64,000 nt of DNA from Corynebacterium jeikeium. Its GTDB lineage: Bacteria; Actinomycetota; Actinomycetes; Mycobacteriales; Mycobacteriaceae. The notes beneath the pieces were generated by a model. The model was not told the origin of the DNA and did no database searches. It saw only the letters and a program-made list of their open reading frames with translations. Shown here piece by piece: positions 640 through 58,609 of this stretch; the first letter of the stretch is position 1, and each line of letters begins with the position of its first letter. Location: assembly GCA_003955985.1 (NCBI GenBank), contig CP033784.1, forward strand, positions 868,001 through 932,000. The letters run 5' to 3'. The translations under genes and the position numbers were made by a program.

Positions 640-2122
640 ATTCAGTCTCCTTCGGGTTGCCGCGGAATGTCACCGCAGTCGCAATCGCTGCAATGACAGC
701 AACGACAGCCAGGATAATCAAAATGGCCAGGTAGGAACTGTCGAGGCCGGCGCGGGCGCCGTCGTTAAGCGCTGGCGTGTGAAGTGCATCGGTGAGTGAG
801 ATGCTGGCGTCGACAGGCGTAAACAGGGTGTAGAACATAGGCAGGAGACTGCCTGTGATTGCGACGGTAATCAGTGTGCCGAATTCGTAGGACACGGATT
901 CCATCGCCGCCGCCATACCTGCCTTTGACCTCGGCGCTGAGCCGATTATCGCAGTCGACGACACCGACATCACAGAACCTGCGCCCGCGCCGAGCAGTAT
1001 CAATCCCGCGATCATGAGCGAGAAATTGCCCGAGGAAACGCCGTAGTACATGCCTGCCAGTCCGACGGCGTTGAGGAGGAAGCCGCCGGTGATGAGTGTG
1101 CGGAAACCCACTCGATGGAGCACCATGCCGCCGATGACACCAACTGGCAAGGATGCCAGTGCCGCGGTGGCAACTAGCAAGCCCGCGTCGAGTGGTGTGT
1201 ATCCGACGGAAATCTGGAAGCGCTGCGTCGTCATCAATTCGGCGCCTGCCAGGACAAACATGGCAAGCGCTGCTGCCAGCACGCCACCGGAAAACATCGG
1301 CGAACGGAAGACCGAAAAGTCGATGAGGGGTTCGGTAAGACGTGCCTGACGACGCTGAAACAGTGCCGCGCCCACTAGCCCACAGGCGATAGCTGCGACG
1401 ATGACGGTGGAGGAGCGATGGCCGGCGAGTTCCTTGATGAGTGAAACCAGGCCCAGCATGGCCAGCATCGCGTAGAGGCTGGTGAGGAAGTCCCAGTGTT
1501 TGGCTGGGTTGGGCTGATTTGGTGGAGCGAAAATCAGCGTGCCAATGATTGCGAAAACTACGACAGGGATGTTGATAAGGAAGATTGAGCCCCACCAAAA
1601 GTGCTCCAACAGGAAACCGCCGACGACGGGGCCAGCAGCGGCACCCAGTGTTGCCGTGGCTGACCAAATGCCAATAGCCGTGGCAAGTTCACGAGGGTGG
1701 TGGAAGGTCTCACGTAGCAGTGCGAGAGTGGCCGGCATCATGGTCGCGGCGCCCAGTCCCAGGCAGCCGCGGGCGATGACCAGCGCCCAGGCGTGCGGCG
1801 CAAAGGCCGCGGCCAGGGAAGATAAGCCAAAAATCGTCAGGCCCACAAGAAACATCTTGCGGTGACCGATGCGGTCGCCCAGAGTGCCTGTGCCGAGGAG
1901 GAGTGCGGAGATCACCAGTGGGTAGGCGTTGATGATCCACAGGCCCTCCAGCTCGGTTGTGTGGAGCTGCTCGCGCAGAACTGGCAGGGCAGTGTAGAGC
2001 ACCGAGTTATCTATGCCGATGAGTAGTAGGCCGGCGCTGATGATAGCGAGGAAGACCCACCTGTGGGTGACTGGAGTGGACGGATTAGCCCTCGTGGAAG
2101 CGGCGTGGTCGGTACTTGTCAT
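626..2122 (-). CDS. MFS drug exporter, DHA2 (QacA/SmvA-like) type
   Basis: A 498-residue polytopic membrane protein with about 14 hydrophobic segments. It has the family A-type loop (GDRIGHRKMF, residues about 82-91) and the proton-antiporter motif C region (GPVVGGFLL, near residue 160). These features and the length fit the 14-helix DHA2 group, which exports cationic dyes, antiseptics or antibiotics in exchange for protons. The start is the ATG at 2122, only 4 bases from the edge of the palindrome at 2127-2156; there is no good Shine-Dalgarno sequence, so the message may be leaderless. The gene is first in a two-gene operon with the TetR regulator. One copy of the dispersed GTCGTNAAGCG motif falls inside it (761-771). 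Confidence 0.9.
   Translation of the reverse strand: MTSTDHAASTRANPSTPVTHRWVFLAIISAGLLLIGIDNSVLYTALPVLREQLHTTELEGLWIINAYPLVISALLLGTGTLGDRIGHRKMFLVGLTIFGLSSLAAAFAPHAWALVIARGCLGLGAATMMPATLALLRETFHHPRELATAIGIWSATATLGAAAGPVVGGFLLEHFWWGSIFLINIPVVVFAIIGTLIFAPPNQPNPAKHWDFLTSLYAMLAMLGLVSLIKELAGHRSSTVIVAAIACGLVGAALFQRRQARLTEPLIDFSVFRSPMFSGGVLAAALAMFVLAGAELMTTQRFQISVGYTPLDAGLLVATAALASLPVGVIGGMVLHRVGFRTLITGGFLLNAVGLAGMYYGVSSGNFSLMIAGLILLGAGAGSVMSVSSTAIIGSAPRSKAGMAAAMESVSYEFGTLITVAITGSLLPMFYTLFTPVDASISLTDALHTPALNDGARAGLDSSYLAILIILAVVAVIAAIATAVTFRGNPKETEYAHE
761..771 (+). repeat. GTCGTNAAGCG motif, copy 1
   Basis: GTCGTTAAGCG, antisense within the MFS gene near its 3' end. Confidence 0.8.
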
Positions 2123-2126
2123 TCCA

Positions 2127-2156
2127 GTAACTGTAACGAACGTTCGGTTTAGTTAC
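2127..2156. promoter_or_regulatory. Probable TetR operator upstream of the MFS gene
   Basis: A 30-bp inverted repeat centred at 2141.5. The central CGAACGTTCG (2137-2146) is a perfect palindrome and the outer ends GTAACT / AGTTAC also match. In all, 12 of 15 half-site positions pair. It sits 4 bases upstream of the MFS start codon, where a bound repressor would block transcription initiation. Confidence 0.7.
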
Positions 2157-2332
2157 AACTTCTGGAGAGCGACGATTTAGGCCTAGAACTTCAACAAAAG
2201 TACGCCAATCCCGCCCAAAGGGCCGGTGAAAAAGTGTCTAAGTTGAAGGCGTTATTGAGGTACGAATTCACGGACACCGTTCGATCCCCCCCGTGGCGCC
2301 CGAGCGGGTAAGGATCAGCTTGGACGCGGTGA

Positions 2333-2359
2333 CTTTACGCTCGGAGCTTTACGCTCGGA
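2333..2359. repeat. 14-bp tandem duplication over the stop codon of the 615-residue protein
   Basis: CTTTACGCTCGGAG at 2333-2346 is repeated as CTTTACGCTCGGA at 2347-2359. The second copy contains the last codons (VRA) and the TAA stop of the minus-strand gene; the first lies immediately after it. The duplicate also places a second in-frame-looking end downstream, consistent with slippage. Confidence 0.7.
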
Positions 2360-4846: not shown

Positions 4847-5031
4847 TTTTCCCTCCCCAAAGAATTTGTGTGAGAAAGATATAACACTGCGATCACACTC
4901 GCGCTTGCTGAGAAGCCGAAAAATAGAGCGACTGTGGATAACTTTTTAGGGGTGTGGACAACGCGGTCGATGCGCAGAACCACGCCTCTGCACAGCCGCA
5001 ACCTGCACCTTTAGAGTGTGTTCTCCGTGCC

Positions 5032-5042
5032 GTCGTTAAGCG
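5032..5042 (+). repeat. GTCGTNAAGCG motif, copy 2
   Basis: GTCGTTAAGCG in the region before the thiC promoter, with GGCGG soon after as in copy 8. Confidence 0.8.
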
Positions 5043-8460: not shown

Positions 8461-9966
8461 GTGGGACGGCATAGTCGGGCAGAAGGACCGGTGTCACAGG
8501 ATGGGGCATCGTCACAGGTTGCGGAGTCGCAACGTGCTGTTGCGGAGTCTCCGTCGCGGGCCTCGCGAAAAATATGGGTTCGCAAACCCAATCAGGCCCC
8601 TGCGCTGACGCAATCGCCTGTGATGAGCTGGCCTCTTATGCTGGTCTCGCTGCTCGGTGGTCTTGCCTCGCTGCTGGCCTGGAATGGCCGCACCCAGCCG
8701 GACGATTGGGCGTCGCTCTGGGTGGGCGGGCTACTGATGGACAGGGGACTTGAGTCCCATCTCTATGATGCCGATCCAATCGATTTCACCGCCATGAGCG
8801 GAGAGGTCTGGCCACGCCTGGCGCAGGAAGTGTCTGCGCCATTTACGCATCCCTTTGTGCAAAACCCTTTGTTTGCAAAGGCTCTGGGAGCGATATCCCA
8901 CGTCATGAGCTTTGAAACCTCGGTTGCTTGGTTGCTGTTTCTTTCCGGAATGGCCGTTGTGGTCCTGGTCGCAGCTTCCTACCACCTGTGGTTTCGGTCG
9001 ACCATGCCCTGGGGTATCGCAGCGCTGGTTACCGCATGCGTATTCGCCCTGCCGACCACTCTTAATTCGTTCTGGATTGGTCAGACGACACCGCTGATTG
9101 TCGCGGGCGTCGCCTATGGGCTTGCCGCCTCGCGCACTCGTCCTTGGCTCGCGGGCATCGTCCTCGGCATCGTCGCATCCATTAAATTGACTCCGTATGC
9201 GCTCATCGCCGTGATGCTCTTTTTCGCTTATCGACGGCGCGCAGCCCTCTGGTCGCTGGCCACCACGGCGGTACTGGCGGTCTGGATGTTTATCCGCATT
9301 GACATACCGGTTATTTCGGACTGGATTGATCGAATCGACGACATTGGTGCGTCGGTCTTGGTCGGTGGTGCGAATCAGTCGTTGGCGTCGACTTTAGCCA
9401 CAGATCTGGGCAATCCTGATTTATTAGTAACAGTGGTTCGTGATTATCCGAGTCACGTGAAAACGATTCCACTGTGTATTGCGCTTGGCGTGGTGTTGAT
9501 GGTCACGGCAGTTGCGTGGTTGAACCCGGTCTACCGGTTTGAGGTTCTAATCACCGGCGCGTGGCTTATTGCAGCCACATTCTCATCGATTCTTTGGACC
9601 CACTACATGTTGATGCTGGTCACGCCTGTGTTCGGTTTGGCCGCCATGGCGCGGACCCGATTGACCAGACAGTGGCCGTATATCGGTATTGCGTTGCTAG
9701 TGGTCCTGCTGACGTTCCCTGTGACAAACCCGATTGCTGCTACGCCGTATACCGGCGGATTTGTGTACTCGGGGATTACTGCGATGCTCTTGACGCTGGC
9801 ATTGATGCTCATTATTGGTGGCTGCCACGCGTTTGCGGTACATCGGTACGGCGATGGTGATGCAGGCGAGGTTGGAGCTGGATTGGGCAGTGAATTAGCT
9901 GCCGCGGAGACATTGAAATTTCCTCAGCCAGAGCCAATGGTCTTATTCGACTTGAGGAAGCGCTAG
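8461..9966 (+). CDS. GT87-family (DUF2029) membrane glycosyltransferase, AftC/PimE-like
   Basis: A 501-residue protein with about 10 membrane segments. It has the GT-C features of family GT87: an acidic first extracellular loop (NGRTQPDDWASLWVGGLLM), GQTTPLIVAGVAYGLA, GIVASIKLTPY and GGANQSLASTLATDL. GT87 enzymes in this order use polyprenyl-phosphate sugars to build envelope glycans; members are AftC (arabinan branching) and PimE (mannosylation of phosphatidylinositol mannosides). Sequence alone does not decide between them. GAGGAGG at 8451-8457 is close to the GTG at 8461, which I take as the start; the in-frame ATG at 8449 overlaps that site and lacks one of its own. The residues before the first membrane segment (about 60) are basic, Ser/Gln-rich and probably cytoplasmic. 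The gene stands alone and meets a small minus-strand gene tail to tail. Confidence 0.85.
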   Translation: MGRHSRAEGPVSQDGASSQVAESQRAVAESPSRASRKIWVRKPNQAPALTQSPVMSWPLMLVSLLGGLASLLAWNGRTQPDDWASLWVGGLLMDRGLESHLYDADPIDFTAMSGEVWPRLAQEVSAPFTHPFVQNPLFAKALGAISHVMSFETSVAWLLFLSGMAVVVLVAASYHLWFRSTMPWGIAALVTACVFALPTTLNSFWIGQTTPLIVAGVAYGLAASRTRPWLAGIVLGIVASIKLTPYALIAVMLFFAYRRRAALWSLATTAVLAVWMFIRIDIPVISDWIDRIDDIGASVLVGGANQSLASTLATDLGNPDLLVTVVRDYPSHVKTIPLCIALGVVLMVTAVAWLNPVYRFEVLITGAWLIAATFSSILWTHYMLMLVTPVFGLAAMARTRLTRQWPYIGIALLVVLLTFPVTNPIAATPYTGGFVYSGITAMLLTLALMLIIGGCHAFAVHRYGDGDAGEVGAGLGSELAAAETLKFPQPEPMVLFDLRKR

Positions 9967-10430: not shown

Positions 10431-11813
10431 ATGGCTATTTCTTCGGCACCCACCCCTGAGTCCCCGGATTCGGCGGATACCTCGGACGTGGCATCGCGCA
10501 GCGTTCCGGCGGCAGCGCTCAGTCACGTTGAGGATTTAATTGATTTTGTGGCTGCGTCGCCAAGCTCATTTCATGCGGCACAACAGGTCGTTGACCGTCT
10601 GAGTGCAGCCGGTGCCACGGTCATCGATGAGCACGAACAGTGGCCAAGTAAACCCGGTGCCTACGTCCTGCGTCGCGATGGCGCTGCCGTTGCTTGGATC
10701 GTCCCGGAGACGCCGGCTGCCGATTTCACCGGTTTCCGTATTGTGGGTTCCCACACGGATTCGCCCGGTTTTCGTGTGAAGCCCAACGCGCGCACCTCCG
10801 CCGCAGGCTATGCGCAGGTCGCCGTTGAAGTCTACGGCGGCGCGTTGTTGGGAAGCTGGACCGACCGCGAAATTGAGTTCGCCGGTCGGGTAATTGATAA
10901 AAGCGGCAATGAGCACTTTGCTCGCACTGGCCCGGTTGCGCGTATCCCGCAGTTGGCTATCCACCTCAATCGTGCAGTTAATGAAGAGGGATTGAAGCTC
11001 CACAAGCAGAATCACACTGCACCAATCATCGGACTGGATACCTTCGGCACCGATGTGCACCAGGTCATCGCCGATGCTGCGAGCCTGTCTATCGACGACA
11101 TCGTCGCCTGGGACCTCATTTCCTTCGACACCCAGCAGCCGCGCACCTTCGGTGCTCACGATGAGTTCCTGGCTTCAGGTCGACTCGACAACCTGCTCAG
11201 CGTCCACTCCTCCCTGGTCGCCTTCGAGACCTTGCTCCGTCAAAACTGTTGCACGTCAACCACCATCCCCGTCATGGTCGCTTTCGATCACGAGGAAGTT
11301 GGGTCCGCCTCCACCACGGGCGCTGCAGGGCCACTGCTTGCCGACGTTCTGTCCCGCATCGCAGCGGCCACGGGCGCTGACCTGGAACGCACTCAGCAGC
11401 TCTACCGCGGTTCCATCTGTCTCTCTGCTGACGGCGCACACGGTGTGCACCCGAACTATGCAGGCGAACACGAGCCGGGGCACCAGCCGGAACTCAATGC
11501 CGGCCCGGTGGTGAAGATCAATGCCAACCAGCGCTACGCCACCACGGCGGCCGGTCAGGCGGAGGTTGTCCGAATCGCAGCGGAAACCTCCAAGCGCATT
11601 GGCCAGGAAGTGCCGGTGCAGTATTTTGTCTCTGCGAACCACAAGCCATGCGGCTCCACTATCGGCCCGATCACTGCAACGCGACTGGGTATCGACACCA
11701 TCGATATCGGAGCTGCGATGGTCTCCATGCACTCGGCGCGTGAGATGTGCGGCACGATTGACCCATGGTGGTTGGCCGAACTCACCGTGGATTTCTGGGG
11801 TGCCGGACACTAG
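10431..11813 (+). CDS. apeB: M18-family aspartyl/broad-specificity aminopeptidase
   Basis: A cytosolic two-zinc aminopeptidase of 460 residues that removes N-terminal, often acidic, residues from peptides. The metal-binding and catalytic blocks are visible: GSHTDSPGFRVKPN (zinc His and Asp), FGAHDEFLASGRLDNL, VAFDHEEVGSAS (general-base Glu and zinc Glu), SADGAHGVHPNY, and the C-terminal ANHKPCGSTIGPI and HSAREMCGTID. M18 proteins are usually 430-490 residues, so this one is full length. The start is the ATG at 10431, with TAGGAG 7 bases upstream at 10418-10423. The 264-base gap before it, shared with the divergent small gene, contains no further recognisable element. It is followed by another peptidase (M20) in the same direction, which suggests a peptide-salvage neighbourhood. 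Confidence 0.93.
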   Translation: MAISSAPTPESPDSADTSDVASRSVPAAALSHVEDLIDFVAASPSSFHAAQQVVDRLSAAGATVIDEHEQWPSKPGAYVLRRDGAAVAWIVPETPAADFTGFRIVGSHTDSPGFRVKPNARTSAAGYAQVAVEVYGGALLGSWTDREIEFAGRVIDKSGNEHFARTGPVARIPQLAIHLNRAVNEEGLKLHKQNHTAPIIGLDTFGTDVHQVIADAASLSIDDIVAWDLISFDTQQPRTFGAHDEFLASGRLDNLLSVHSSLVAFETLLRQNCCTSTTIPVMVAFDHEEVGSASTTGAAGPLLADVLSRIAAATGADLERTQQLYRGSICLSADGAHGVHPNYAGEHEPGHQPELNAGPVVKINANQRYATTAAGQAEVVRIAAETSKRIGQEVPVQYFVSANHKPCGSTIGPITATRLGIDTIDIGAAMVSMHSAREMCGTIDPWWLAELTVDFWGAGH

Positions 11814-11872
11814 CAGCTCGCTGGCAGCGCTGAAGTCGCCTCTAGCAGGGGAGATGTCGGGGCGCTGTGGCC

Positions 11873-11883
11873 GTCGTGAAGCG
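11873..11883 (+). repeat. GTCGTNAAGCG motif, copy 3
   Basis: GTCGTGAAGCG in the 135-bp gap between the M18 and M20 genes. Confidence 0.8.
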
Positions 11884-11948: not shown

Positions 11949-13361
11949 ATGACTGATGCTAACGACACCCTGCCGTCGCACCGCCTTGAAGTACCTATCG
12001 AAGAGGCGGTGGCATGGCGTCGCCAACTGCACCAGAATCCGGAGCTGAGCTTCCGGGAGTACAGGACCTCGGACATGATTGAGGATCTGCTCAATCAATG
12101 GGACATCCCGACGTACCGGTTAACCCCGACGTCCGTGATTGGCGTCATCGAGGGTACAGCGGGCGACCCCAGCACTGGCCGTGTGATTGGCTACCGCGCG
12201 GATATTGACGCCCTGCCGATTCAGGAGGAAACGGGATTGCCGTACGCCTCGCGCACGCCGGGTGTGATGCACGCCTGTGGTCATGATGTGCACACGGCGA
12301 TGCTGCTGGGCACGGCGAAGGTGCTCTCTGGAATGCGCGATCAACTGCACGGCAAGGTGCTGTGCATCTTCCAGCACGCCGAAGAAATGCTGCCGGGCGG
12401 TGCTCGTGAGCTGGTCGACAAGGGTGCCGCCGATGACTTGGATGAGGTCTACGCCTTCCACGTCGCGCCGCATCCGGTAGGGCATGTGGGAATTTGCGCT
12501 GGGCGAGTGACAACCATGTCGGGCATCGTCTCCATCGCGATTCGTGGCCGTGGCGGACACTCTTCGAACCCGCAGCTGTCGATTGACCCGGTGCTCATCG
12601 CCAGCGAGGTGACTCTCATGCTGAACACGATTGTCTCCCGCGATGTGGATCCAAAGCACATGAACATCGTCAACGTCGGCTCACTGCATTCAGGTGAGGC
12701 CGGCAACGTGATCCCGGATACGGCCAACCTGGAAGTGTCCATCCGCTCGGTGGATGAGGCCGACTGGGAGATTGTCTGCCAGCGTATCGAGGCCGTCGTC
12801 AACGGCGTCTGCCAAGCTCACGGCGCACAGGCGACTTTTGACTGGCAGATTCCGTACCCGATGGTGGTCAACGCCGACATTGCAGTCAATCGCGCCTGGC
12901 ATGCGGCGACGAAGGCAGTTGGCAACTCCAAGGTGTTCGCCGCCGATCCGTGGGCTCCTTCGGATGACTTCTCCTATTTTTCCCGTGAAGCGCCGGGCTG
13001 TTACATGTTTCTCGGCACCGGTGGCCCGGAAGCGGGTAATCCCTTCTTTCTCCACAATTCCAAGTTTAAAATTGTGGAGAGAGCCATGGTCAATGGCATG
13101 CGCACGGAAATCCAAATCGCGCTCGACGCACTGAACCCGTCGAAGAATCATCCGCCGGAGCGCCCTGCCACATCTCCGACCATGCCCGCAGCAGGTTCCG
13201 TGCCTCCACGGCCGCGGAAGGCAGGCCTTGGCACGCCACAGTCGCATGCGGGCCAGGCGCGGGCGTCGTCAAGCGAATCGGCGGGGGAGACCTCACCGAG
13301 TCCTGAGGCGGCGGCATCAGATAATTCCAATCAGCCTCAGGCACCTAGAGAGGATGCATAG
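11949..13361 (+). CDS. M20D amidohydrolase/peptidase with a long C-terminal tail
   Basis: The first 395 residues or so are a zinc amidohydrolase of the hippurate/IAA-amino-acid hydrolase group. Markers are WRRQLHQNPELSFREYRTS, YRADIDALPIQEETGLPYAS, MHACGHDVHTAMLLG, QHAEEMLPGGARELVD and the dimerisation-domain GRGGHSSNPQLSIDP. Such enzymes cleave N-acyl amino acids or small amides. Unlike the second M20D protein (23495-24727), it ends in about 75 residues of low-complexity Pro/Ser/Ala/Glu sequence. One copy of the GTCGTNAAGCG motif falls in this tail (13265-13275, read as a Ser-rich segment). The ATG at 11949 has no strong ribosome site. Its stop lies 4 bases before the favoured start of the GH13 gene, so the two probably share a transcript. 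Confidence 0.9.
   Translation: MTDANDTLPSHRLEVPIEEAVAWRRQLHQNPELSFREYRTSDMIEDLLNQWDIPTYRLTPTSVIGVIEGTAGDPSTGRVIGYRADIDALPIQEETGLPYASRTPGVMHACGHDVHTAMLLGTAKVLSGMRDQLHGKVLCIFQHAEEMLPGGARELVDKGAADDLDEVYAFHVAPHPVGHVGICAGRVTTMSGIVSIAIRGRGGHSSNPQLSIDPVLIASEVTLMLNTIVSRDVDPKHMNIVNVGSLHSGEAGNVIPDTANLEVSIRSVDEADWEIVCQRIEAVVNGVCQAHGAQATFDWQIPYPMVVNADIAVNRAWHAATKAVGNSKVFAADPWAPSDDFSYFSREAPGCYMFLGTGGPEAGNPFFLHNSKFKIVERAMVNGMRTEIQIALDALNPSKNHPPERPATSPTMPAAGSVPPRPRKAGLGTPQSHAGQARASSSESAGETSPSPEAAASDNSNQPQAPREDA
13265..13275 (+). repeat. GTCGTNAAGCG motif, copy 4
   Basis: GTCGTCAAGCG in the low-complexity tail of the M20 protein; read as ASSSES. Confidence 0.8.
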
Positions 13362-25307: not shown

Positions 25308-25414
25308 AATTCCATACTCTAAACCACGCTGTCGCGGCGCGAAACGTCACTGCTAGGTTGAACTTATCGCTTGCCGACGAGCAGATAACCGGCAACCACC
25401 ACAAAAGCTAACTT

Positions 25415-47004: not shown

Positions 47005-47754
47005 TTACTCCTTGACCTCGGTTTTGTGAATCTGCTCATCCAGGTCTTCCGGATCCAGGTCAGCATCCGAGAATTCCGCCGTTAGCGGAAGGCGAAGCTG
47101 CAGGTCAGTGCCCGGGCACAGTTCGATAGTGCCCGAGCGCAGCTTAAAGTCCAGCACATGCCCGCCGCCGGTGCCGCCTTCCGCGAGGAAGTGCACGTGA
47201 CAGCCGGGCACCGAAATTCCCTTCTCATAGACCGGCGTGCGGAAGCCCGCAATCGTGCCCTGCAGGTTCTCGAAATCAACCGACGCGTCTTCTTCCGTCG
47301 CATCAACCATCTTCTGATACGGCTTTTCCTGCTTTACGACGGTTCGAGTCTTCACCCACTCAAATTCGCCGGTAATCCGCAGTGCGTACATAAAGTTTTG
47401 GCTCGGCACCAGGGAATCGATGATGGGGCTAATTTCCTTGCGAGTCAGGTTTTCCGGCGCATCCATCACCGTGTGGGGAACGAAGTTGGTGACCACCGTG
47501 TAGGGGCTGCGCTGATCCATGGTGGCCCGGGTCGCGGAGCCGTCGTGACGCACCTGCCAGCAGACACCGTCGAGGATTACCATTTCGCCATCGAGACCGT
47601 CGAAGGTGCCGATGCCGAAGTTTCCATGACCAAGGATTTCGCCAATGGTCATCTCGCCGTCGTAGATGCCATCGAGCAGTGCGGACATCAGTGAGTTTTG
47701 GAAAATTGTGTGTCGGACCGTTGGAAAATTCTCGTGAGTGGTCATGGAAGCCAT
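47005..47754 (-). CDS. budA: Alpha-acetolactate decarboxylase
   Basis: A 249-residue zinc enzyme that converts alpha-acetolactate to acetoin, the route to butanediol and the basis of the Voges-Proskauer test. The conserved core is HTIFQNSLMSALLDGIYDG, DGLDGEMVILDGVCWQV and GCHVHFLAEGGTGGGHVLDF, which carries the His-x-His...His zinc ligands. GFRTPVYEKGISVPGCH precedes it. I place the start at ATG 47754 (MASMTTHENFPT); the longer open frame upstream shows no further homology. It stands alone, 4 bases from the convergent RlmA-like gene. The enzyme is scattered among corynebacteria, so gain by transfer is plausible. A partner acetolactate synthase is not in the window. Confidence 0.93.
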   Translation of the reverse strand: MASMTTHENFPTVRHTIFQNSLMSALLDGIYDGEMTIGEILGHGNFGIGTFDGLDGEMVILDGVCWQVRHDGSATRATMDQRSPYTVVTNFVPHTVMDAPENLTRKEISPIIDSLVPSQNFMYALRITGEFEWVKTRTVVKQEKPYQKMVDATEEDASVDFENLQGTIAGFRTPVYEKGISVPGCHVHFLAEGGTGGGHVLDFKLRSGTIELCPGTDLQLRLPLTAEFSDADLDPEDLDEQIHKTEVKE

Positions 47755-49647: not shown

Positions 49648-50844
49648 TTACATCAAAGACTTATAGACGTCGACGGTCTGCTGAGCGATGTTCTCCCAGC
49701 TAAACACATCTTCAGCGCGCTTCTTACCCGCCTGGCCAACCTTGGCAGCGCGGTCGCGGTCGGCGACCATGTTGTTGACAGCGGCAGCGATGCCTCGTTC
49801 GAAGCCCTCCGGATCGGACTCGTCGTAGTGAACCAGAGTGCCGGTTTCGCCATCGACGACAACCTCCGGAATGCCGCCGACATCAGAGGCGACAACGGCG
49901 GTGCCACAGGCCATAGCCTCGAGGTTAACGATGCCCAGCGGCTCGTAGATGGACGGGCAGACGAACGAATCCGCGGCCGTCAGGATCTCCTGGATCTTCT
50001 CCTTCGGCAGCATGTCCTGCACCCAGAAAATGCCATCGCGCTTCTCCTGGAGGTCATGGACGAGCTGCTCAGTCTCCTTCGCGATCTCCGGGGTGTCCGG
50101 AGCGCCGGCGCACAGAACGAGCTGCACACCGTCGTCGAAAAGCGATGCGGCCTTGACCAGGTGAGCGACACCCTTCTGACGGGTGATGCGGCCGACGAAT
50201 GCAACCATCGGGCGAGACGGGTCAACGCCGAGCTCCTCCAGGACAGACCAGCCGTTCTGTTCCTTGGACTCTTCCCATGTCGGCCGCGGGTACCACAGCT
50301 CGGTGTCGATACCGTTCAGGACAACGTGGACCTTGTCGGGGGAGATACGCGGGTAGGCATCCAGGATGGCGTCCTTCATGCGCGCGGAAACAGCAATGAC
50401 AGCGTCTGCGTACTCCATAGCATTGCGCTCGGACCAGCTGGAAACGTCGTAACCGCCGCCGAGCTGCTCGCGCTTCCACGGGCGGTGCGGCTCCAGTGAG
50501 TGCGCGGTGGCCACATGCGGAATGCCCTTGAGCAGACCAGTGAGGTGACCGCCCAGGCCTGAGTACCAGGTGTGAGAGTGGACGACATCAATGTCGGTTG
50601 CCGCGGCGGCATTTGCCATGCGCAACCCCGTGGACAGCGTCTTAATCGAGGCGTTGGCATCCTTCAGCTCCGGGTCAACGCCGTGGACATATACATCCGC
50701 CTCATCGCGAGGAGCACCCATGCAGTGCACATCGACGTCAACGCCGTCGAGGCCGCGCATGAAACGAGTCAGTTCAGTTACGTGAACACCTGCTCCGCCG
50801 TAAATCTCCGGAGGGTATTCCTTGGTCATCATGGCAACACGCAT
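49648..50844 (-). CDS. glgM: GT4 glucosyltransferase, GlgM/actinobacterial glycogen synthase
   Basis: A 398-residue retaining glycosyltransferase of family GT4. Actinobacterial members, once called GlgA, use ADP-glucose to make maltose-1-phosphate or extend alpha-glucan. The N-terminal EYPPEIYGGAGVHVTELTRFM (donor/acceptor Gly-rich loop) and the C-terminal VGRITRQKGVAHLVKAASLF, PSIYEPLGIVNLEAMACGTAVVASDVGGIPEVVVDGETG (E-x7-E) are diagnostic. The gene is divergent from glgC with 112 bases between them, the usual arrangement. glgC supplies the ADP-glucose. The start is ATG 50844. Downstream are two strong hairpins. Confidence 0.95.
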   Translation of the reverse strand: MRVAMMTKEYPPEIYGGAGVHVTELTRFMRGLDGVDVDVHCMGAPRDEADVYVHGVDPELKDANASIKTLSTGLRMANAAAATDIDVVHSHTWYSGLGGHLTGLLKGIPHVATAHSLEPHRPWKREQLGGGYDVSSWSERNAMEYADAVIAVSARMKDAILDAYPRISPDKVHVVLNGIDTELWYPRPTWEESKEQNGWSVLEELGVDPSRPMVAFVGRITRQKGVAHLVKAASLFDDGVQLVLCAGAPDTPEIAKETEQLVHDLQEKRDGIFWVQDMLPKEKIQEILTAADSFVCPSIYEPLGIVNLEAMACGTAVVASDVGGIPEVVVDGETGTLVHYDESDPEGFERGIAAAVNNMVADRDRAAKVGQAGKKRAEDVFSWENIAQQTVDVYKSLM

Positions 50845-50956: not shown

Positions 50957-52174
50957 GTGAGGAGTCAACCACATGTTTTGTCCATTGTCCTTGCCGGTGG
51001 CGAAGGCAAGCGTCTCTTCCCGCTGACGGAAGACCGCGCTAAGCCCGCCGTGCCTTTCGGTGGTAGCTATCGGCTTATCGACTTCGTGCTGTCGAACCTG
51101 GTCAACGCAGGTTTCTTGAAGATCTGTGTGCTGACCCAGTACAAGTCCCACTCGCTCGACCGTCACATTTCGCAGGCGTGGCAGCTGTCCGGCATCACCG
51201 GCCAGTACGTCACCCCGGTGCCGGCTCAGCAGCGTCTGGGCAAGCGCTGGTTCACCGGTTCGGCGGACGCGATTCTGCAGTCGCTGAACTTGGTTTATGA
51301 CGAGGATCCGGAGTACGTCATCGTCTTCGGTGCCGACCACGTCTATCGCATGGATCCGCAGCAGATGCTGGAGGCCCACATCGAGTCTGGCGCTGGCGTG
51401 ACGGTCGCTGGTATCCGCGTCCCGCGTTCTGAGGCCAGCGCATTCGGTGTCATCGATGCCGATGACAACAACCGAATCACCGAGTTCCTGGAGAAGCCGG
51501 CTGATCCGCCCGGCACCCCGGATGATCCGAACTCGACGTTCGCGTCGATGGGTAACTACATCTTCACTACCTCCGCGCTTATCGACGCTATTAAGCGTGA
51601 CTCGGAAGATGAAAACTCCGACCATGACATGGGCGGAAACATCATTCCGATGCTGGTAGAGGAGGGCGAAGCTTTCGTCTGGGACTTCAAGGACAGCTAC
51701 GTTCCGGGTGAGACCGAACGTGACAAGGGCTACTGGCGTGATGTCGGTACCATCGATGCCTTCTACGAGGCCAACATGGACCTGATTTCCGTCCACCCGG
51801 TGTTTAACCTCTACAACAAGAAGTGGCCAATCCACACCTTCTCGGAGGAGAACCTGCCTCCGGCCAAGTTCGTCCAGGGCGGTATTGCTCAGGCTTCGAT
51901 GGTCGGTGCTGGTTCGATTGTCTCCGGTGGTACGGTCCGCAACTCGGTGATTAGTACCAACGTTGTGGTCGAGGATGGCGCGACGGTGGAGGGCTCGGTT
52001 CTCTTCCCAGGCGTTCGCGTCGGCCGCGGAGCAGTGGTTCGCCATGCGATTTTGGACAAGAACGTTGTAGTTTCCGACGGCGCCATTATCGGTGTCGATC
52101 CGGAGAAGGACGCAGAGCGCTTCAAGGTCAGCGCTGGTGGCGTTGTGGCCGTTGGTAAGAACCAGGTTATCTAG
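50957..52174 (+). CDS. glgC: Glucose-1-phosphate adenylyltransferase GlgC
   Basis: GlgC makes ADP-glucose from glucose-1-phosphate and ATP for glycogen and maltosyl-glucan synthesis. The 405-residue protein starts [25 protein letters not shown] (nucleotide-binding), with [27 protein letters not shown] and [32 protein letters not shown]. The C-terminal beta-helix has [51 protein letters not shown] choose GTG 50957 ([15 protein letters not shown]); a TTG at 50948 would add three residues and has no advantage. It is divergent to glgM. A perfect 14-bp terminator stem follows at 52197-52228. Confidence 0.96.
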
Positions 52175-52511: not shown

Positions 52512-53186
52512 CTACTTCTTCACCAGCACAGTGGTGCCAGCTGCTAGAGGTAGGCGCATCACGTAAGCGTCGTCAAGCTGGAGCATATATTCGTCGGCTT
52601 CGCGGGCAGCGACGGTGTCACGGTCAGTGCGTGACGAGTCAGCGACAGTGCCGTCGAGGAGCGCGCCGGTCAGGACGAGCGCGCCACCGGAGCGAAGCAG
52701 CGGCCAGGCCTTTTCCTGGGCGGCGCGGAGGATCGCCGGGGCGACGTCCAAGTAGACCAAGTCGTAGGAGTCGGCGGCCAGTCGATCCATGACCTCCAGC
52801 GGCTGCGAAGGCAGGAAGCGCTGTCGGTTGGGGCGGATGCCTGCGGCTCGGAAAGCGGACTTTGCCAGAGACTGGTGCTCGAGCTCCGGGTCGATGCAGG
52901 TGAGAACGCCGTCATCGCCGAGGCCGGCGGCCAGGTGCAAACCGACTACGCCTGCCGCAGGCGATGCGATGACAGCGGCGGGGTGACCGTCGCGGCGGGC
53001 ACTGGTCAGAGCCATGAGCGAGGTCAAAGCGGCGCCGGTCATCGTATCGGGGACGGCAACTCCGTATTCGCGAGCGCTCTCTCGGGCGCTTTCAAGGGCC
53101 TCGGAGACTACGGTCGTGTTGTTGACGTGCTGTGCAATAGCGTCACGTGCGGATAGCGGGGTAGCAGAAGAACTCGTTTCGGACAC
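52512..53186 (-). CDS. O-methyltransferase (Rv1220c type)
   Basis: A 224-residue SAM-dependent methyltransferase. The AdoMet-binding stretch is split: ASPAAGVVGLHLAAGLGDDGVLTCIDPELEH (acidic turn D), then SYDLVYLDVAPAILRAAQEKAWPLLRSGGALVLTGALLDG. The family (class I O-methyltransferase, caffeoyl-CoA-like) usually binds a divalent metal, and the acid residue near DVAP could serve. In actinobacteria it lies directly before and divergent to sigE, as here (159 bases). The substrate is unknown. The first 30 residues are unordered (MSETSSSATPLSARDA). Confidence 0.88.
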   Translation of the reverse strand: MSETSSSATPLSARDAIAQHVNNTTVVSEALESARESAREYGVAVPDTMTGAALTSLMALTSARRDGHPAAVIASPAAGVVGLHLAAGLGDDGVLTCIDPELEHQSLAKSAFRAAGIRPNRQRFLPSQPLEVMDRLAADSYDLVYLDVAPAILRAAQEKAWPLLRSGGALVLTGALLDGTVADSSRTDRDTVAAREADEYMLQLDDAYVMRLPLAAGTTVLVKK

Positions 53187-54442: not shown

Positions 54443-55761
54443 TGGGCAAACATCGCTCTTTCGATGATTCCGCGTTCGCCCCGGACTCCGATCGTGCCGC
54501 CGCAACTGGCGGGTTACAGCGTGCTCCAGGGCAGAAGCTTGACGACGACACCAGTGCGACCGCCCAAGAGTATTCGCCGTGGCAGGATTCGTCGTCACGC
54601 ATGACGACGGGGCGTCCAGCCCGCAAACCCGAAGCGAAAAAGAAGCCTCGCCCGAAGACGGCTCCCCGCGTCAGCGCGCGGGAAGTGATTTTTGGCCGCG
54701 AGGTGCCGTGGCGTGTGATTGCGGCATCGTCGGCCGTGGTGCTGCTCATTGGCGGTGTTGGCGGCTTTGTTGGCGGTTGGGCTGGCAAGTCTTTCCGCTC
54801 GGACTACCAGCGTGTGGAGCTGCAGCAGATCGAGGGGCGGCCGGGCAACGGTGATTTGACTGAAATCGGCAAGGTGGCGGAGGCTCTTCGTCCCGCGGTG
54901 GTGTCGATTGCGGTCAGTGCCGGTGAGGTCTCGGGCGTGGGCTCGGGGTTTGTCATTGATGGTGACGGTCATATTTTGACGAATAACCACGTCGTTTCGG
55001 CGGTGGCGGACCGGCAGGATATGCAGGTCTCCGTAACGTTTTGGGACGGCGGAAAGCTGAAGGAAGTGCCGGCCAAGATTATTGGCCGCGACCCGAAGAC
55101 CGACCTCGCTGTGATTAAGGTCGAAGATGTTGCGGGGCTGACTGTGGCGCAGCTTGGTGATTCCAACGCGGTTGCGGTCGGTGACACAGTGATTGCGATG
55201 GGCTCGCCGCAGGGGCTTGGCGGCACGGTGACCTCGGGCATTGTCTCGGCGCTCAATCGCCCGGTGCGCCTGGCTGCTGAGGGGACCGACACGGACGGTT
55301 ACGCCGATGCGATTCAGACCGATGCCTCCATCAACCCGGGTAACTCGGGTGGTCCACTGGTGGATATCCGCGGTGCCATTATCGGTATTAATACGGTGAT
55401 TTTCAGTAGTTCGGGTGGCTCACAGGGGTTGGGCTTTGCGATTCCAATCAATTCAGCCGTTGCCATCGCGGAGCAGCTCATCGCCGGTGAGCAGCCGGTT
55501 CATCCGGGGATTGGCGTGACAGCGCGCACGGTTTCCAATGGCGCACTGACTGGTGCCGAGATTGCCAGCATCCTGCCGGGAGGCGTTGCCGACCGGGAAG
55601 GCCTGCAGGAAGGCGATGTGATTACGGCTGTGGGAGACCGCGCGGTATCGTCCGCAGATGAGCTCACGGTGGCGCTGTGGACTGTTGGCGCTGGTAATGA
55701 GGCGGTATTGAAGATCGTTCGCCACGGAGCCGAGCTGGAGGCGAAGATCACGCCGGAGTAG
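54442..55761 (+). CDS. htrA: Membrane-anchored HtrA/DegP serine protease with PDZ domain
   Basis: A 439-residue envelope protease. The first 90 residues are cytoplasmic and low-complexity; a membrane helix follows at about 92-115 (VIAASSAVVLLIGGVGGFVGGW). The trypsin-like domain has the triad His (NNHVV, near 183), Asp (TDLAVI, near 221) and Ser (GNSGGP, near 302). A C-terminal PDZ has HPGIGVTARTVSNGAL and ILPGGVADREGLQEGDVITAVGDRAV. HtrA degrades misfolded proteins outside the membrane; the mycobacterial partner acts with SigE. It starts with GTG 54442. The gene closes the sigE-rseA-htrA unit; tatB follows after 90 bases. Confidence 0.95.
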   Translation: MGKHRSFDDSAFAPDSDRAAATGGLQRAPGQKLDDDTSATAQEYSPWQDSSSRMTTGRPARKPEAKKKPRPKTAPRVSAREVIFGREVPWRVIAASSAVVLLIGGVGGFVGGWAGKSFRSDYQRVELQQIEGRPGNGDLTEIGKVAEALRPAVVSIAVSAGEVSGVGSGFVIDGDGHILTNNHVVSAVADRQDMQVSVTFWDGGKLKEVPAKIIGRDPKTDLAVIKVEDVAGLTVAQLGDSNAVAVGDTVIAMGSPQGLGGTVTSGIVSALNRPVRLAAEGTDTDGYADAIQTDASINPGNSGGPLVDIRGAIIGINTVIFSSSGGSQGLGFAIPINSAVAIAEQLIAGEQPVHPGIGVTARTVSNGALTGAEIASILPGGVADREGLQEGDVITAVGDRAVSSADELTVALWTVGAGNEAVLKIVRHGAELEAKITPE

Positions 55762-55851: not shown

Positions 55852-56406
55852 GTGTTTTCTAATGTTGGCTGGGGCGAGATTCTTGTCCTCTTTATCCTCG
55901 GACTAATTCTCATCGGACCTGAGCGGTTGCCGAAGGTAATTGAGGACGTCCGCGCATTGCTCTTGGCTGCGCGCACCGCAATCAATGACGCACGCGATAA
56001 CCTCTCGGACGAGTTCGGCGAAGACTTCGACGATCTTCGCAAGCCGCTGCAGGAGCTCAACGATCTCCGTCGTCTCAACCCGAAGACCGCCATCACCAGG
56101 ACGCTTTTCGACGGCGATGACACCTACCTGGACATGCTCTCCGGTAAGCCCGCAGCGGGTGGTGGCGGAACTGGTGCAGCCGGAGCTGCAGGAGCGGCCG
56201 GGCCTGCGGGTCAGCAGTACCAGCAGTCCAATACGAACCAGCCAGTGCAGCCGGCTCCGTCGCAGCAGCCGCTCCCGCAGCCGGGGACGTGGCAGGATCC
56301 AGTTGCCCAGGCCCGCCAACAGCAAGCACAGCAAACACCACAGCAGCCGCAACAACCTCAGCAGCCCCGTGGGGTGCAGGCCTGGGTCGACGACGACAAC
56401 CTATAG
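55852..56406 (+). CDS. tatB: Twin-arginine translocase subunit TatB
   Basis: A 184-residue protein with an N-terminal membrane helix ([22 protein letters not shown]), the typical Glu/Pro hinge, and an amphipathic helix ([45 protein letters not shown]). The conserved GPERLPK marks TatB rather than TatA. TatB recruits twin-arginine signal peptides to the TatC complex. The C-terminus (residues about 100-184) is Gln/Pro/Gly-rich ([11 protein letters not shown]). In M. tuberculosis tatB also follows htrA. It starts at GTG 55852. Motif VFSNVGWGE shows the periplasmic N-terminus. Confidence 0.95.
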
Positions 56407-56433
56407 AGGTTGCAAACCGTTCCCGACCGCAAG

Positions 56434-56502
56434 TTACTGACTAGGTTTATGACACTTTGAGCACAAATTTTGCCACGAAAGTGTCATAAACCTAGTCAGT
56501 AA
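56434..56502. repeat. Perfect 25-bp inverted repeat, palindromic variant of the intergenic repeat
   Basis: The arm TTACTGACTAGGTTTATGAC(ACTTT) at 56434-56458 is exactly complementary to 56478-56502, with a 19-base loop. The core sequence belongs to the same family as 23211, 44522, 52337 and 60739. Confidence 0.9.
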
Positions 56503-56583: not shown

Positions 56584-56624
56584 ACGCCCCCTTCCCGGCA
56601 CCGAAAATACCGGGGAGGGGGCGT
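56584..56624 (-). terminator. Terminator after mrp
   Basis: ACGCCCCCTTCCCGG and CCGGGGAGGGGGCGT pair around CACCGAAAATA. On the minus strand CTTTTG follows. Confidence 0.85.
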
Positions 56625-56634
56625 CGCTGTGATC

Positions 56635-56645
56635 GTCGTAAAGCG
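56635..56645 (+). repeat. GTCGTNAAGCG motif, copy 9
   Basis: GTCGTAAAGCG between the mrp terminator and the mrp stop codon. Confidence 0.8.
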
Positions 56646-56650
56646 AAGGC

Positions 56651-57784
56651 CTACTTCGGAGTCACGCCCAGGCCGAGCGACTTGCCTGCGAGCGACTCGC
56701 GACGAACAACCAGCTTGTCAGCGATGGCGTTCAGGGCCTCGCCCGCGCCCGAATCCGGCTTGGACAGGACAATCGGGGTGCCCTTGTCGCCGCCTTCGCG
56801 TAGCTCTGTGTCCAGCGGCACCTGGCCGAGCAGCTCGACCTTTCCGCCGGTGATCTGGGTAAGACGACGGGCAACGGTCTCGCCGCCACCTGCGCCGAAG
56901 ACCTCCATCTTGGAGCCGTCCGGCATCTCCATCCAGCTCATGTTCTCGATGACACCGGCGATGCGCTGGCGGGTCTGCAGCGAAATGGTGCCGGCGCGCT
57001 CTGCGACCTCGGCGGCGGCCATCTGCGGGGTAGTAACAATCAGCAGCTCAGCGTTCGGCACGAGCTGCGCCACGGAGATGGCGATGTCGCCGGTTCCCGG
57101 GGGCAGGTCGAATAGCAGGACGTCCAGGTCGCCCCAGAACACGTCCGCGAGGAACTGCTGGATAGCGCGGTGCAGCATTGGCCCACGCCAGACAACCGGT
57201 GCGTTGTCGTCGACGAAGTGTCCGATAGAAATCAGTGACACGCCGTGCGCCTGCGGAGGCATGATCATGTCGTCGACCTGGTGTGGCTTTTCCTCGGAGC
57301 CCATCATGTGCGGAATGGAGTGTCCGTAGACGTCGGCATCGAGGACACCGACAGACAGGCCCTTCGCGGCCAGCGCGGCGGCGAGGTTCACGGTCACGGA
57401 GGACTTACCGACGCCACCCTTACCGGAGGCGACGGCGAACACGCGGGTGCGGGAGTCCGGCTGGGCGAATGGGATCACCGGCTCGGAGGCGGTGCCGCGG
57501 ACGGCGTTGCGGAACTCGCGGCGCTGCTCGTCATTCATCACATCGGTGGTGACGGTGACGTTGCCAACGCCCTCGATACCGTTCAGCGCCTCTTCGGTGC
57601 GCTCGATGATGGTGTTTTTCATGGGGCAACCGGCGATGGTGAGGTAAATCTCCACGGCCACGTCATTGTTGTCCGCCACCGAGATGGACTTGACCATGCC
57701 AATCTCGGTAATCGGGCGACGTACCTCAGGATCTTCGACCTGCGCCAGGGCGGTGCGAACTTCAGCTTCAGTAATCGTAGACAT
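56651..57784 (-). CDS. mrp: Mrp/ApbC P-loop iron-sulfur carrier protein
   Basis: A 377-residue ATPase that carries [4Fe-4S] clusters to target proteins. The N-terminal MIP18-like domain (DPEVRRPITEIGMVKSI...VEIYLTIAGCPMKN) carries a conserved Cys. The P-loop is GKGGVGKSS; LDADVYGHSIPHMMG and DVLLFDLPPGTGD follow. The family CxxC near residue 280-290 is not present (ENMSWME instead), as in other corynebacterial copies. The start ATG 57784 is after a 9-bp inverted repeat at 57824-57846. It is the minus-strand neighbour of tatB and stands alone. A GTCGTNAAGCG motif lies on each side of it. Confidence 0.92.
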   Translation of the reverse strand: MSTITEAEVRTALAQVEDPEVRRPITEIGMVKSISVADNNDVAVEIYLTIAGCPMKNTIIERTEEALNGIEGVGNVTVTTDVMNDEQRREFRNAVRGTASEPVIPFAQPDSRTRVFAVASGKGGVGKSSVTVNLAAALAAKGLSVGVLDADVYGHSIPHMMGSEEKPHQVDDMIMPPQAHGVSLISIGHFVDDNAPVVWRGPMLHRAIQQFLADVFWGDLDVLLFDLPPGTGDIAISVAQLVPNAELLIVTTPQMAAAEVAERAGTISLQTRQRIAGVIENMSWMEMPDGSKMEVFGAGGGETVARRLTQITGGKVELLGQVPLDTELREGGDKGTPIVLSKPDSGAGEALNAIADKLVVRRESLAGKSLGLGVTPK

Positions 57785-57823
57785 TATGTAGTGAATCTTA
57801 TCGTGAGACCCCGCAAGACAAAG

Positions 57824-57846
57824 AACTACTGACAAAATCAGTAGTT
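57824..57846. promoter_or_regulatory. 9-bp perfect inverted repeat before mrp
   Basis: AACTACTGA (57824-57832) and TCAGTAGTT (57838-57846) across CAAAA, 40 bases before the mrp start. An operator or leader hairpin. Confidence 0.45.
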
Positions 57847-57849
57847 TGC

Positions 57850-57860
57850 CGCTTTACGAC
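57850..57860 (-). repeat. GTCGTNAAGCG motif, copy 10 (reverse)
   Basis: CGCTTTACGAC on the plus strand, 4 bases beyond the inverted repeat upstream of mrp. Confidence 0.8.
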
Positions 57861-58052
57861 GGTCACAGCGACCAACCCTTCCGGCAAGAGCGGTGGCGGT
57901 GGAATGGGCGGCGGACCAGTCGGTGGAACAATTGCCAATCGTCTGACGTTGTCCTTGATAGAACGCCTTTTGGCGATAGTTTTAGCAATATTTTCAGCAA
58001 CTGAGTCACCTTTTACTGTGACAACAACTGCAAGGGAACGGTGAGAGTACCG

Positions 58053-58586
58053 ATGGCAAATGGGGAAGCGGGCAGCGGTTGGGGGAGCGGCCGGGAACAG
58101 AGCATGAAGTCCCGGTTGCCTCAGCGCCAGGTACCCGAGGGGTGGCCGGTGGGCAGTTTCACCAACTACTCCGACGCGCAGGCGGCGGTGGATTCGCTCA
58201 GTGATCGCGATGAGTTCCCGGTTTCCGACCTCACCATCGTCGGTGTTGACCTGATGCAGGTGGAGCGCGTGGTTGGCAGGCTGACCTGGCCGAAGGTGCT
58301 CGGCGGCGGCGCGCTGTACGGGCTGTGGATGGGCCTGTTCTTCGGCCTGATTCTGGGGCTTTTCCAGGAGGATTGGGTTAGTCCGCTGATTGTTGGCCTC
58401 GGTATGGGCGCCATCTTCGGCATCGTGCTGGCCGCAGTTCCGTACGCAATGCAAAACGGCAAGCGGGATTTCTCGAGCACTACGGAGATTGTTGCCCGTC
58501 GCTACGATGTCCTGTGCAATCCCCGCAATGCTGAGCGGGCCCGTGACCTGTTGGCGCAGCGGGCGCTCGGTGGGAACCGTGGGTAG
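58053..58586 (+). CDS. General-stress-protein 17M-like membrane protein
   Basis: A 177-residue protein with an N-terminal soluble domain (GWPVGSFTNYSDAQAAVDSLSDRDEFPVSDLTIVGVDLMQVERV), seen in general-stress proteins like YflT/17M. It is followed by two hydrophobic segments (GGGALYGLWMGLFFGLILGLF and LIVGLGMGAIFGIVLAAVPYAM) and a short C-terminal domain (YDVLCNPRNAERARDLLAQRAL). The mycobacterial Rv1234 matches in layout. Start ATG 58053 (MANGEAG) is preferred to the 58041 GTG. It lies between mrp and corA, and a GTCGTNAAGCG copy follows 13 bases after its stop. Confidence 0.85.
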   Translation: MANGEAGSGWGSGREQSMKSRLPQRQVPEGWPVGSFTNYSDAQAAVDSLSDRDEFPVSDLTIVGVDLMQVERVVGRLTWPKVLGGGALYGLWMGLFFGLILGLFQEDWVSPLIVGLGMGAIFGIVLAAVPYAMQNGKRDFSSTTEIVARRYDVLCNPRNAERARDLLAQRALGGNRG

Positions 58587-58598
58587 GTTGCTGTATCC

Positions 58599-58609
58599 GT
58601 CGTAAAGCG
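58599..58609 (+). repeat. GTCGTNAAGCG motif, copy 11
   Basis: GTCGTAAAGCG in the 43-bp gap between the stress-protein stop and the corA stop. Confidence 0.8.

Follow-up and report, generated by a model that had tools for sequence, protein, structure and literature searches.

A sharply defined motif of Corynebacterium genomes, with near-exclusive dialects, as a probable DNA uptake signal sequence

The genome of Corynebacterium jeikeium (label G000) carries 1,574 copies of a sharply defined, gapped core, CGTCGNNAAGC, that recurs across its genus in near-exclusive dialects and probably serves Corynebacterium as an uptake signal sequence, by which DNA would be tagged for natural uptake. An 11-base version of it, GTCGTNAAGCG, had been picked out in a 64-kb stretch of this genome (the window, meaning the whole 64,000 nucleotides analysed) by an initial annotation that took it for a genome-wide DNA signal, a reading supported by a copy number far above chance. 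All eleven exact copies reported there are present, and a twelfth, which had been overlooked, lies at 35184-35194 on the minus strand, giving 12 copies in the window (9 plus, 3 minus). In 100 dinucleotide shuffles of the window, GTCGTNAAGCG appeared 0.23 times on average and at most twice, in agreement with the claim that it lies far above chance (~0.1 copies had been expected), and the genome-wide total of 318 copies (158 forward, 160 reverse) is likewise not near the random expectation. GTCGTNAAGCG is a subset of the stronger, wider core, of which there are 525 copies in an 864-kb sample of the genome, compared with 21.7 expected under an order-4 model, and 43 in the window (20 plus, 23 minus). 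The seven near-matches reported initially all fall within this wider core. The 43 copies are listed here, with the sites and near-matches of the initial annotation in parentheses:

760-770, plus, core CGTCGTTAAGC (site 761)
5031-5041, plus, core CGTCGTTAAGC, intergenic (site 5032)
9226-9236, minus, core CGTCGATAAGC
10555-10565, plus, core CGTCGCCAAGC
11336-11346, minus, core CGTCGGCAAGC
11872-11882, plus, core CGTCGTGAAGC, intergenic (site 11873)
13264-13274, plus, core CGTCGTCAAGC (site 13265)
13704-13714, minus, core CGTCGAAAAGC
15533-15543, plus, core CGTCGATAAGC
18004-18014, plus, core CGTCGTCAAGC, intergenic by our own gene caller (site 18005)
18182-18192, minus, core CGTCGCCAAGC
19316-19326, minus, core CGTCGAGAAGC
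20435-20445, minus, core CGTCGATAAGC
21138-21148, minus, core CGTCGTCAAGC (site 21137)
21451-21461, plus, core CGTCGTAAAGC (site 21452)
25369-25379, minus, core CGTCGGCAAGC (near-match 25370)
26451-26461, plus, core CGTCGGCAAGC
27825-27835, plus, core CGTCGTGAAGC, intergenic (site 27826)
29351-29361, plus, core CGTCGGTAAGC
30354-30364, minus, core CGTCGGCAAGC
31245-31255, minus, core CGTCGGCAAGC
32359-32369, plus, core CGTCGGTAAGC
32755-32765, minus, core CGTCGGAAAGC
35185-35195, minus, core CGTCGTTAAGC (exact 11-mer, overlooked)
36357-36367, plus, core CGTCGGCAAGC (near-match 36358)
36762-36772, minus, core CGTCGGCAAGC
39146-39156, plus, core CGTCGGCAAGC
40586-40596, minus, core CGTCGATAAGC
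40833-40843, plus, core CGTCGACAAGC
41835-41845, minus, core CGTCGGGAAGC
42042-42052, plus, core CGTCGTAAAGC (near-match 42043)
46389-46399, minus, core CGTCGTCAAGC
47331-47341, minus, core CGTCGTAAAGC (near-match)
50133-50143, plus, core CGTCGAAAAGC
51577-51587, minus, core CGTCGATAAGC
52568-52578, plus, core CGTCGTCAAGC (near-match 52569)
54537-54547, minus, core CGTCGTCAAGC (near-match)
56103-56113, minus, core CGTCGAAAAGC
56634-56644, plus, core CGTCGTAAAGC, intergenic, just beyond the stop of an Mrp-like gene at 56651-57784 (site 56635)
57851-57861, minus, core CGTCGTAAAGC, intergenic (site 57850)
58598-58608, plus, core CGTCGTAAAGC, intergenic (site 58599)
59659-59669, minus, core CGTCGTCAAGC, fixed bases kept in 4 related records with flanks 55-95% identical (near-match)
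63002-63012, minus, core CGTCGGCAAGC, identical in 6 related records

The core consists of nine fixed bases, a two-base gap and a G-rich upstream flank. When bases were swapped singly in the 864-kb sample, eight of the nine fixed positions proved to be all-or-none, with counts falling to about expectation; at the ninth, the second A, C is tolerated (99 vs 22) and G partly so (47 vs 19). The motif first described is real, but it is longer on the left, with C directly before GTCGTNAAGCG in 130 of 133 flanks, and looser inside, where the T preceding N and the final G of GTCGTNAAGCG can both be replaced. Its fullest intergenic form in the C. jeikeium genome is a G-rich stretch of ~20 bases followed by CCGTCGTAAAGCGA. 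Regions of higher GC tend to contain more core copies (rank correlation 0.38 across bins of 5 kb), a point against the uptake reading. The initial annotation knew of no description of the motif, and we likewise found none in the open-access literature that was searched, where spellings of the motif matched a single paper, on CoQ10 production.

In favor of a by-product of codon or peptide preferences, 271 of the 452 coding copies in the 864-kb sample occupy a single antisense frame. The remaining 181, however, are spread over the other five frames, intergenic DNA is enriched too, and 40 rounds of synonymous-codon shuffling of the 706 called genes left only ~33 copies, such that coding copies exceed this codon-preserving control, which the initial annotation had called for, ~14-fold. 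Because the excess persists under that control, we consider the by-product explanation refuted and its probability next to nil. The initial claim that copies concentrate between genes holds for the fullest version but not for the density of the wider core. Of the 12 window copies of GTCGTNAAGCG, 9 were intergenic according to our own gene caller, a count that drops to 7 because those at 21137 and 21452 lie inside an uncalled 314-aa ORF (20843-21787); the 864-kb sample contains 114 copies, of which 39 lie between genes and 1 at an edge, with ~19% of the sample being non-coding according to the same caller. Since the caller, which assigns 81% of the sample to genes, misses some of them, these intergenic counts are upper bounds. 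The core itself has a density of 0.44 per kb in intergenic versus 0.65 per kb in coding DNA, and an enrichment over composition of 57-fold versus 33-fold. It is also denser in genes elsewhere, most strongly in two genomes with the one-base CA dialect described below (0.55 vs 0.13 and 0.32 vs 0.08 per kb, with just 3 and 2 intergenic copies behind these figures). In G000 and G016, intergenic density is lower but fold-enrichment higher, and in the CA genomes G151 and G083 neither is higher. Given that intergenic regions are described as particularly permissive for the DUS of Neisseriaceae (PMC3630211), the higher density of the core in genes is a point against the uptake reading.

The core lacks orientation bias. 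The 9:3 strand split of GTCGTNAAGCG, on which such a bias had been claimed, is within chance (binomial P = 0.15), forward and reverse copies are nearly equal both genome-wide and among core copies in the window, and of 514 core copies in the 864-kb sample that could be assigned to replichores, 243 are leading and 271 lagging (P = 0.23). The switch between replichores by which the initial annotation proposed to judge itself was not seen in this sample, and the evidence gives no support to its assignment of the motif to orientation-biased, architecture-imparting signals (KOPS, Chi or nucleoid-protein sites). We reject a KOPS-type orientation on the same values, as the strong orientation toward the terminus that characterizes KOPS is absent from the core, and the Chi-like and nucleoid readings are weakened. 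A Chi-like signal would act while double-strand breaks are processed, where AdnAB or a related helicase-nuclease would read it, such that self DNA is protected and recombination started, and Chi sites too vary between species (PMC3630211). Of two phages, that of Brevibacterium flavum contains 1 copy in 42 kb and that of C. glutamicum none in 44 kb; taken without the hosts' own counts, these figures form a weak test and are compatible with Chi-like and uptake readings alike. Known Chi sites, however, comprise 5-8 bases, fewer than the nine fixed bases, gap and G-rich flank of the core, and the lack of a leading-strand preference and the mostly inverted orientation of close core pairs also make a Chi-like role unlikely. 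The genome-wide and apparently slightly over-regular spread of the core (a variance/mean of 0.79 across 40 segments of 20 kb each and a spacing CV of 0.93, with close neighbors being few) and its long upstream flank would suit a chromosome-organizing site to which a nucleoid-associated, condensin, FtsK-type or partition protein binds. Such a site is nevertheless improbable, as KOPS-type polarity is absent and one would not expect it to be lost from dozens of species or altered by one base across a clade, although protein and site might co-evolve.

Close pairs of the core (≤60 bp apart) in four genomes comprise 16 inverted and 2 direct pairs; in these small numbers, all 5 intergenic pairs are inverted, and 11 of the 16 inverted pairs lie inside genes. 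Together with near-exclusive one-base dialects, the mostly inverted close pairs point to sequences of the uptake-signal type. Orthologous core copies (225 comparisons, both directions counted) were intact in 125 cases, differed by several bases in 61 and by one base in 33, one-base-off states thus being rarer than either of the others. The differing sites have substitutions in 94 of the 225 comparisons and gaps in 6, which offers no support for a short mobile repeat that inserts whole. Divergence at orthologous sites is 0.104 for the free inner pair, 0.113 for the fixed bases and 0.190 for the flanks, and the low divergence of the free pair, no greater than that of the fixed bases, is also a point against the uptake reading.

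The conservation in relatives that the initial annotation had proposed to look for is extensive. Of 242 Corynebacterium genomes, one per species, 170 contain the core at four or more times the control count, with a median of 1,090 copies and a maximum of 1,964. The combined CG and CA pattern reaches at most about twofold over control in 120 genomes from other genera of the same order, and the motif is restricted to Corynebacterium among the genomes sampled. A dialect differing by one base (CA), CATCGNNAAGC, is present in 14 Corynebacterium genomes at 490-1,337 copies each; in 13 of these the CG form stays below twice its control, and one genome bears both. Word counts made without prior choice of sequence turned up CATCGNNAAGC in G083 and G151, and the CA genomes all fall within one clade of a midpoint-rooted Tad-protein tree of 32 genomes, in which some nodes are weak. 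Four genomes to which we assigned a weak CA dialect, with 159-223 copies, hardly exceed the CA counts of some CG genomes (up to 165). Another word, GTGGCGTCGRA, is raised in 7 genomes (97-217 copies, with at most 43 elsewhere), all of them among those with neither the CG nor the CA motif; a common CGTCG and a similar context suggest that it may be kin to the core. None of the three motifs was detected in 41 of the 242 genomes at the thresholds used, and no word approached motif strength in G014, G171, G085 or G253 (top z 11-15 vs 25-57 in motif-bearing samples), the best words of G014, CTCATCGA and CCTCATCG, being less than twofold over the order-4 model. As weak words in G010 and G066 proved to be a motif, further motifs may be hidden. 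The word-count results for G085 include palindromic words. The genome's small contig C2 was dropped as a plasmid control because it matches enterobacterial plasmids.

The motif resembles the DUS and USS of Neisseriaceae and Pasteurellaceae more than it does KOPS or Chi. Copy number, a sharp core, both orientations without replication polarity, inverted pairs (16 of 18), phylogeny-following dialects and host competence genes (though these are not discriminating) are all traits expected of DUS and USS. Neisseriaceae DUS, described at ~1,900 copies in genomes of 2.2-2.3 Mb, have in common with the core many copies, a short sharp core, inverted pairs and dialects that follow phylogeny (PMC3630211). 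Unlike DUS, the Corynebacterium motif, whose sequence is unrelated, has a two-base gap and is not denser between genes, and it occurs in a Gram-positive actinobacterium that has a Tad-type pilus; its uptake effect and receptor are putative, the receptor in Neisseria being ComP. USS, in which an extended flank stands beside the core, are comparable in this flank, in their 9-base core, in copy number and in opposite-oriented pairs, but the Corynebacterium flank is G-rich and upstream, its sequence unrelated and its function putative. The Pasteurellaceae core is given as AAGTGCGGT (PMC5031613), and H. influenzae is credited with ~1,300 copies and with opposite-oriented pairs in terminators (PMC5217627). 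Chi and KOPS are also overrepresented short motifs in chromosomal DNA, but the core is longer, without replichore polarity and with near-exclusive dialects. Finally, an abundant word could be maintained independently of uptake, whether by repair bias, an orphan methyltransferase or some other molecular drive, and there is precedent in HIP1, a very abundant octamer of bacterial genomes that is linked to orphan methyltransferases in cyanobacteria (PMC4390886). HIP1 is palindromic, whereas the core is non-palindromic, gapped and asymmetric, with dialects. A gapped, asymmetric 9-base word is unlike the usual methylation site, and there is little likelihood that the core is HIP1-like.

For the uptake signal that we favor, we infer that DNA uptake involves reading of the tag: a surface receptor would recognize it on environmental DNA, with ComEA, a DNA-binding protein, or a minor pilin from the Tad-type pilus as the likeliest candidates. 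ComEC would draw the tagged DNA in, and recombination would follow. We propose that the tag accumulates genome-wide and in both orientations because tagged segments would be preferentially taken up and copied in, and that one-base dialects and losses would arise from receptor changes. We see an even chance that most of Corynebacterium practises sequence-selective natural transformation with an independently evolved tag read by the Tad-type pilus or ComEA, with the dialects forming barriers to gene exchange between species, and with GTGGCGTCGRA representing a further, divergent dialect in a group of species. Uptake tags are described in PMC5031613 for two families, Neisseriaceae and Pasteurellaceae, as convergent evolution; the Corynebacterium tag would be a third, unrelated one, in Gram-positive actinobacteria, with dialects over ~190 species. 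It would mean that natural transformation is widespread but hidden in the genus, of which the open-access literature matches listed report no competent member, would provide a test system for tag-receptor co-evolution, and could help to make industrial corynebacteria easier to transform. Whatever the reader protein, a word that recurs genus-wide at about a thousand copies, in dialects that nearly exclude one another, calls for an explanation.

ComEC is encoded in 241 of the 242 Corynebacterium genomes, whether or not the motif is present, and a Tad-type ATPase scores above cut-off in 232; as both are near-universal, we rejected the presence or absence of either as the motif switch. ComEC, ComEA-type and Tad-type genes all occur with or without the motif, and their presence is therefore not discriminating. 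Weaker Tad-ATPase scores (E > 1e-126) tend to accompany loss of the motif, being obtained for 30 of the 48 genomes without CG and CA and for 8 motif-bearing genomes, some of these 8 being fragmented assemblies; the comparison is confounded by kinship. In two TadE-like proteins compared by eye (30 and 29 sequences), no residue tracked the dialect. No comEA-type gene was called near comEC in G078, which has 1,692 core copies. Of 9 comEC loci, 8 have such a gene nearby, and the genome from which the window was taken contains a Tad-type cluster.

All eleven copies of GTCGTNAAGCG reported in the initial annotation are present, together with one at 35184 (minus), giving 12 copies in the window against 0.23 expected. 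Within the 2.53-Mb genome (G000), of which the window is C1:868001-932000, counting both strands as that annotation had proposed yielded 158 forward and 160 reverse copies, far above the same pattern read backwards (3 and 11). The genome probably belongs to the C. amycolatum group, because the window's Mrp-like protein shares 99% identity with its counterparts in Corynebacterium amycolatum SK46 (L072) and in a strain recorded as C. vitaeruminis (L071).

The base preceding GTCGTNAAGCG is C in 130 of 133 flanks. In a sample of forty 20-kb stretches plus the window (864 kb, about one-third of the genome), variants of CGTCGNNAAGC rank first in word counts at lengths 9 and 11; among words of 8 and 10 letters they stand near the top, behind a G run and a word from another repeat. 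This wider core, with nine fixed bases and a free inner pair, occurs 525 times in the sample (21.7 expected, order-4 model), 1,574 times in the genome and 43 times in the window (20 plus, 23 minus); the 43 contain every exact site and near match originally noted. Substituting any base at eight of the fixed positions brings the count near expectation, and the ninth (the second A) tolerates C (99 versus 22) and partly G (47 versus 19). The inner pair is most frequently GC, TC, TA, GA, AC, AT or TT. Intergenic copies show the fullest version, in which a G-rich stretch of ~20 bases is followed by CCGTCGTAAAGCGA.

Within 706 called genes, the core excess survives the codon-preserving control suggested initially, with 452 copies versus ~33 (22.1 + 11.2) when synonymous codons were shuffled in 40 rounds. 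A single antisense frame accounts for 271 of the 452, and the other five frames together for 181. Relative to an order-2 model, enrichment is 33-fold within genes and 57-fold between them. With the origin (~20-60 kb) and terminus (near 1.39-1.45 Mb) placed from GC skew, 243 core copies are leading and 271 lagging, and KOPS-like polarity is therefore absent. The 11-mer is leading in 171 of 318 cases, with positions beyond the matches listed assigned to the other arm. The orientation bias originally perceived thus disappears in the window's core copies, on the replichores and genome-wide. A Chi-like signal and a nucleoid-related role, both raised initially, are less probable readings than DNA uptake, as is a HIP1-like word.

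Core counts rise with local GC, and spacing is slightly more even than random (variance/mean 0.79, a descriptive figure). Pairs at most 60 bp apart were inverted in 16 cases and direct in 2 across four genomes, and intergenic pairs were inverted in 5 of 5. The longest core-free stretches in the sample, L042:6088-17992 (11.9 kb) and L054:6240-16557 (10.3 kb), have low GC and are possible acquired islands.

The initial proposal to seek the motif in other Corynebacterium genomes proved fruitful: in 170 of 242 the core is fourfold or more over its control (median 1,090 copies, maximum 1,964), in 7 it lies two- to four-fold over control and in 65 it falls below twofold. The combined pattern CRTCGNNAAGC never exceeded about twice control in 120 genomes drawn evenly from a larger non-Corynebacterium set of the same order. 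Regions of 21 kb or less surrounding mrp in named species agree broadly with the genome counts: 0.5-0.7 core copies/kb in C. amycolatum, xerosis, sputi and lactis, 0.3-0.4 in pacaense, gallinarum and a glucuronolyticum MAG, 0.24 in ulceribovis and two kroppenstedtii relatives, and ~0.05 in dentalis, marambiense, meridianum and pygosceleis.

Word counts in two seemingly motif-less genomes revealed a one-base variant of the core (CG form), the CA form CATCGNNAAGC (200 kb each; G083, 57 versus 4.7 expected; G151, 100 versus 4.4); a third, G014, gave no comparable word. Genus-wide, 14 genomes carry 490-1,337 CA copies, and in 13 of these the CG form does not reach twice its control. G080 holds both dialects (1,337 CA, 352 CG), perhaps reflecting a receptor with relaxed preference. 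Four genomes (G084, G088, G190, G214) were classed as weakly CA with 159-223 copies, yet CA counts reach 165 in some CG genomes. On trees from concatenated Tad-locus proteins (30 genomes, extended to 32 by adding G080 and G000), which have weak support at some inner nodes, all sampled CA genomes and motif-less G014 form one clade, placed inside the CG genomes by midpoint rooting, which is not an independent rooting; motif-less genomes are scattered over several places. A further word, GTGGCGTCGRA, first met in motif-less G010 and G066, is elevated in 7 genomes, with 97-217 copies against at most 43 in all others; the 7 are all within the 48 that have neither the CG nor the CA motif. The common CGTCG and similar context suggest a possible kinship to the core. 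The seven are G066, G033, G093, G015, G180, G240 and G010, the last with an A-rich stretch after the word. At the thresholds used, 41 of 242 genomes have none of the three motifs.

Site evolution was followed by aligning core copies among seven related records. Of the 225 comparisons, which count both directions, 125 had an intact core, 33 had one substitution, 61 had more and 6 had gaps. At these sites, selected for having the core in one member, divergence was 0.113 at fixed bases, 0.104 at the free pair and 0.190 in flanks; the low free-pair value is not the outcome expected from purely core-directed constraint. Certain cores are kept where flanks are only 55-72% identical (e.g. window 59659).

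In its copy number, sharply defined core, symmetric orientation, inverted pairs, dialects and losses, the motif follows the pattern of DUS and USS, the uptake sequences of Neisseriaceae and Pasteurellaceae (PMC3630211, PMC5031613). By this analogy, we infer that the core is probably a tag for DNA uptake; the points that fit least are its higher density in genes, the low free-pair divergence and the missing receptor. ComEC is found in 241 of 242 Corynebacterium genomes, and the Tad-type ATPase (TIGR03819) is matched in 239, above cut-off in 232; weak matches are not specific, being present in 13 of 14 control genomes as well. G000 has a ComEC match at ~819 kb and a Tad-type cluster at ~317-325 kb, with a TadA-type ATPase, two TadE-type proteins and a DEAH helicase above cut-offs, a CpaE-like protein scoring below its cut-off, and three further genes assigned via similarity to relatives. 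Clustering placed a comEA-type gene close to comEC in 8 of 9 loci, and in G016 a profile match also named it; none was called near comEC in L173, the locus from G078, which has 1,692 core copies. ComEC, Tad-type and comEA-type genes fail to distinguish species with the motif from those lacking it, and no dialect-tracking residues were seen in two TadE-like proteins.

Contig C2 of G000 (L239, 5,990 bp) aligns along 93% of its length, at 95% identity, with a mobilizable plasmid from Enterobacter; it is probably assembly contamination. A second dispersed element, ~100 bp long, has inverted arms GTTTATGACA/TGTCATAAAC, and its words occur in ~18 copies in the 864-kb sample. Its copies in the window, between called genes, and a related repeat are:
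44527, plus strand, second dispersed element
52341, plus strand, second dispersed element
60743, plus strand, second dispersed element
23279, minus strand, second dispersed element
~56430-56490, inverted repeat related to the second dispersed element
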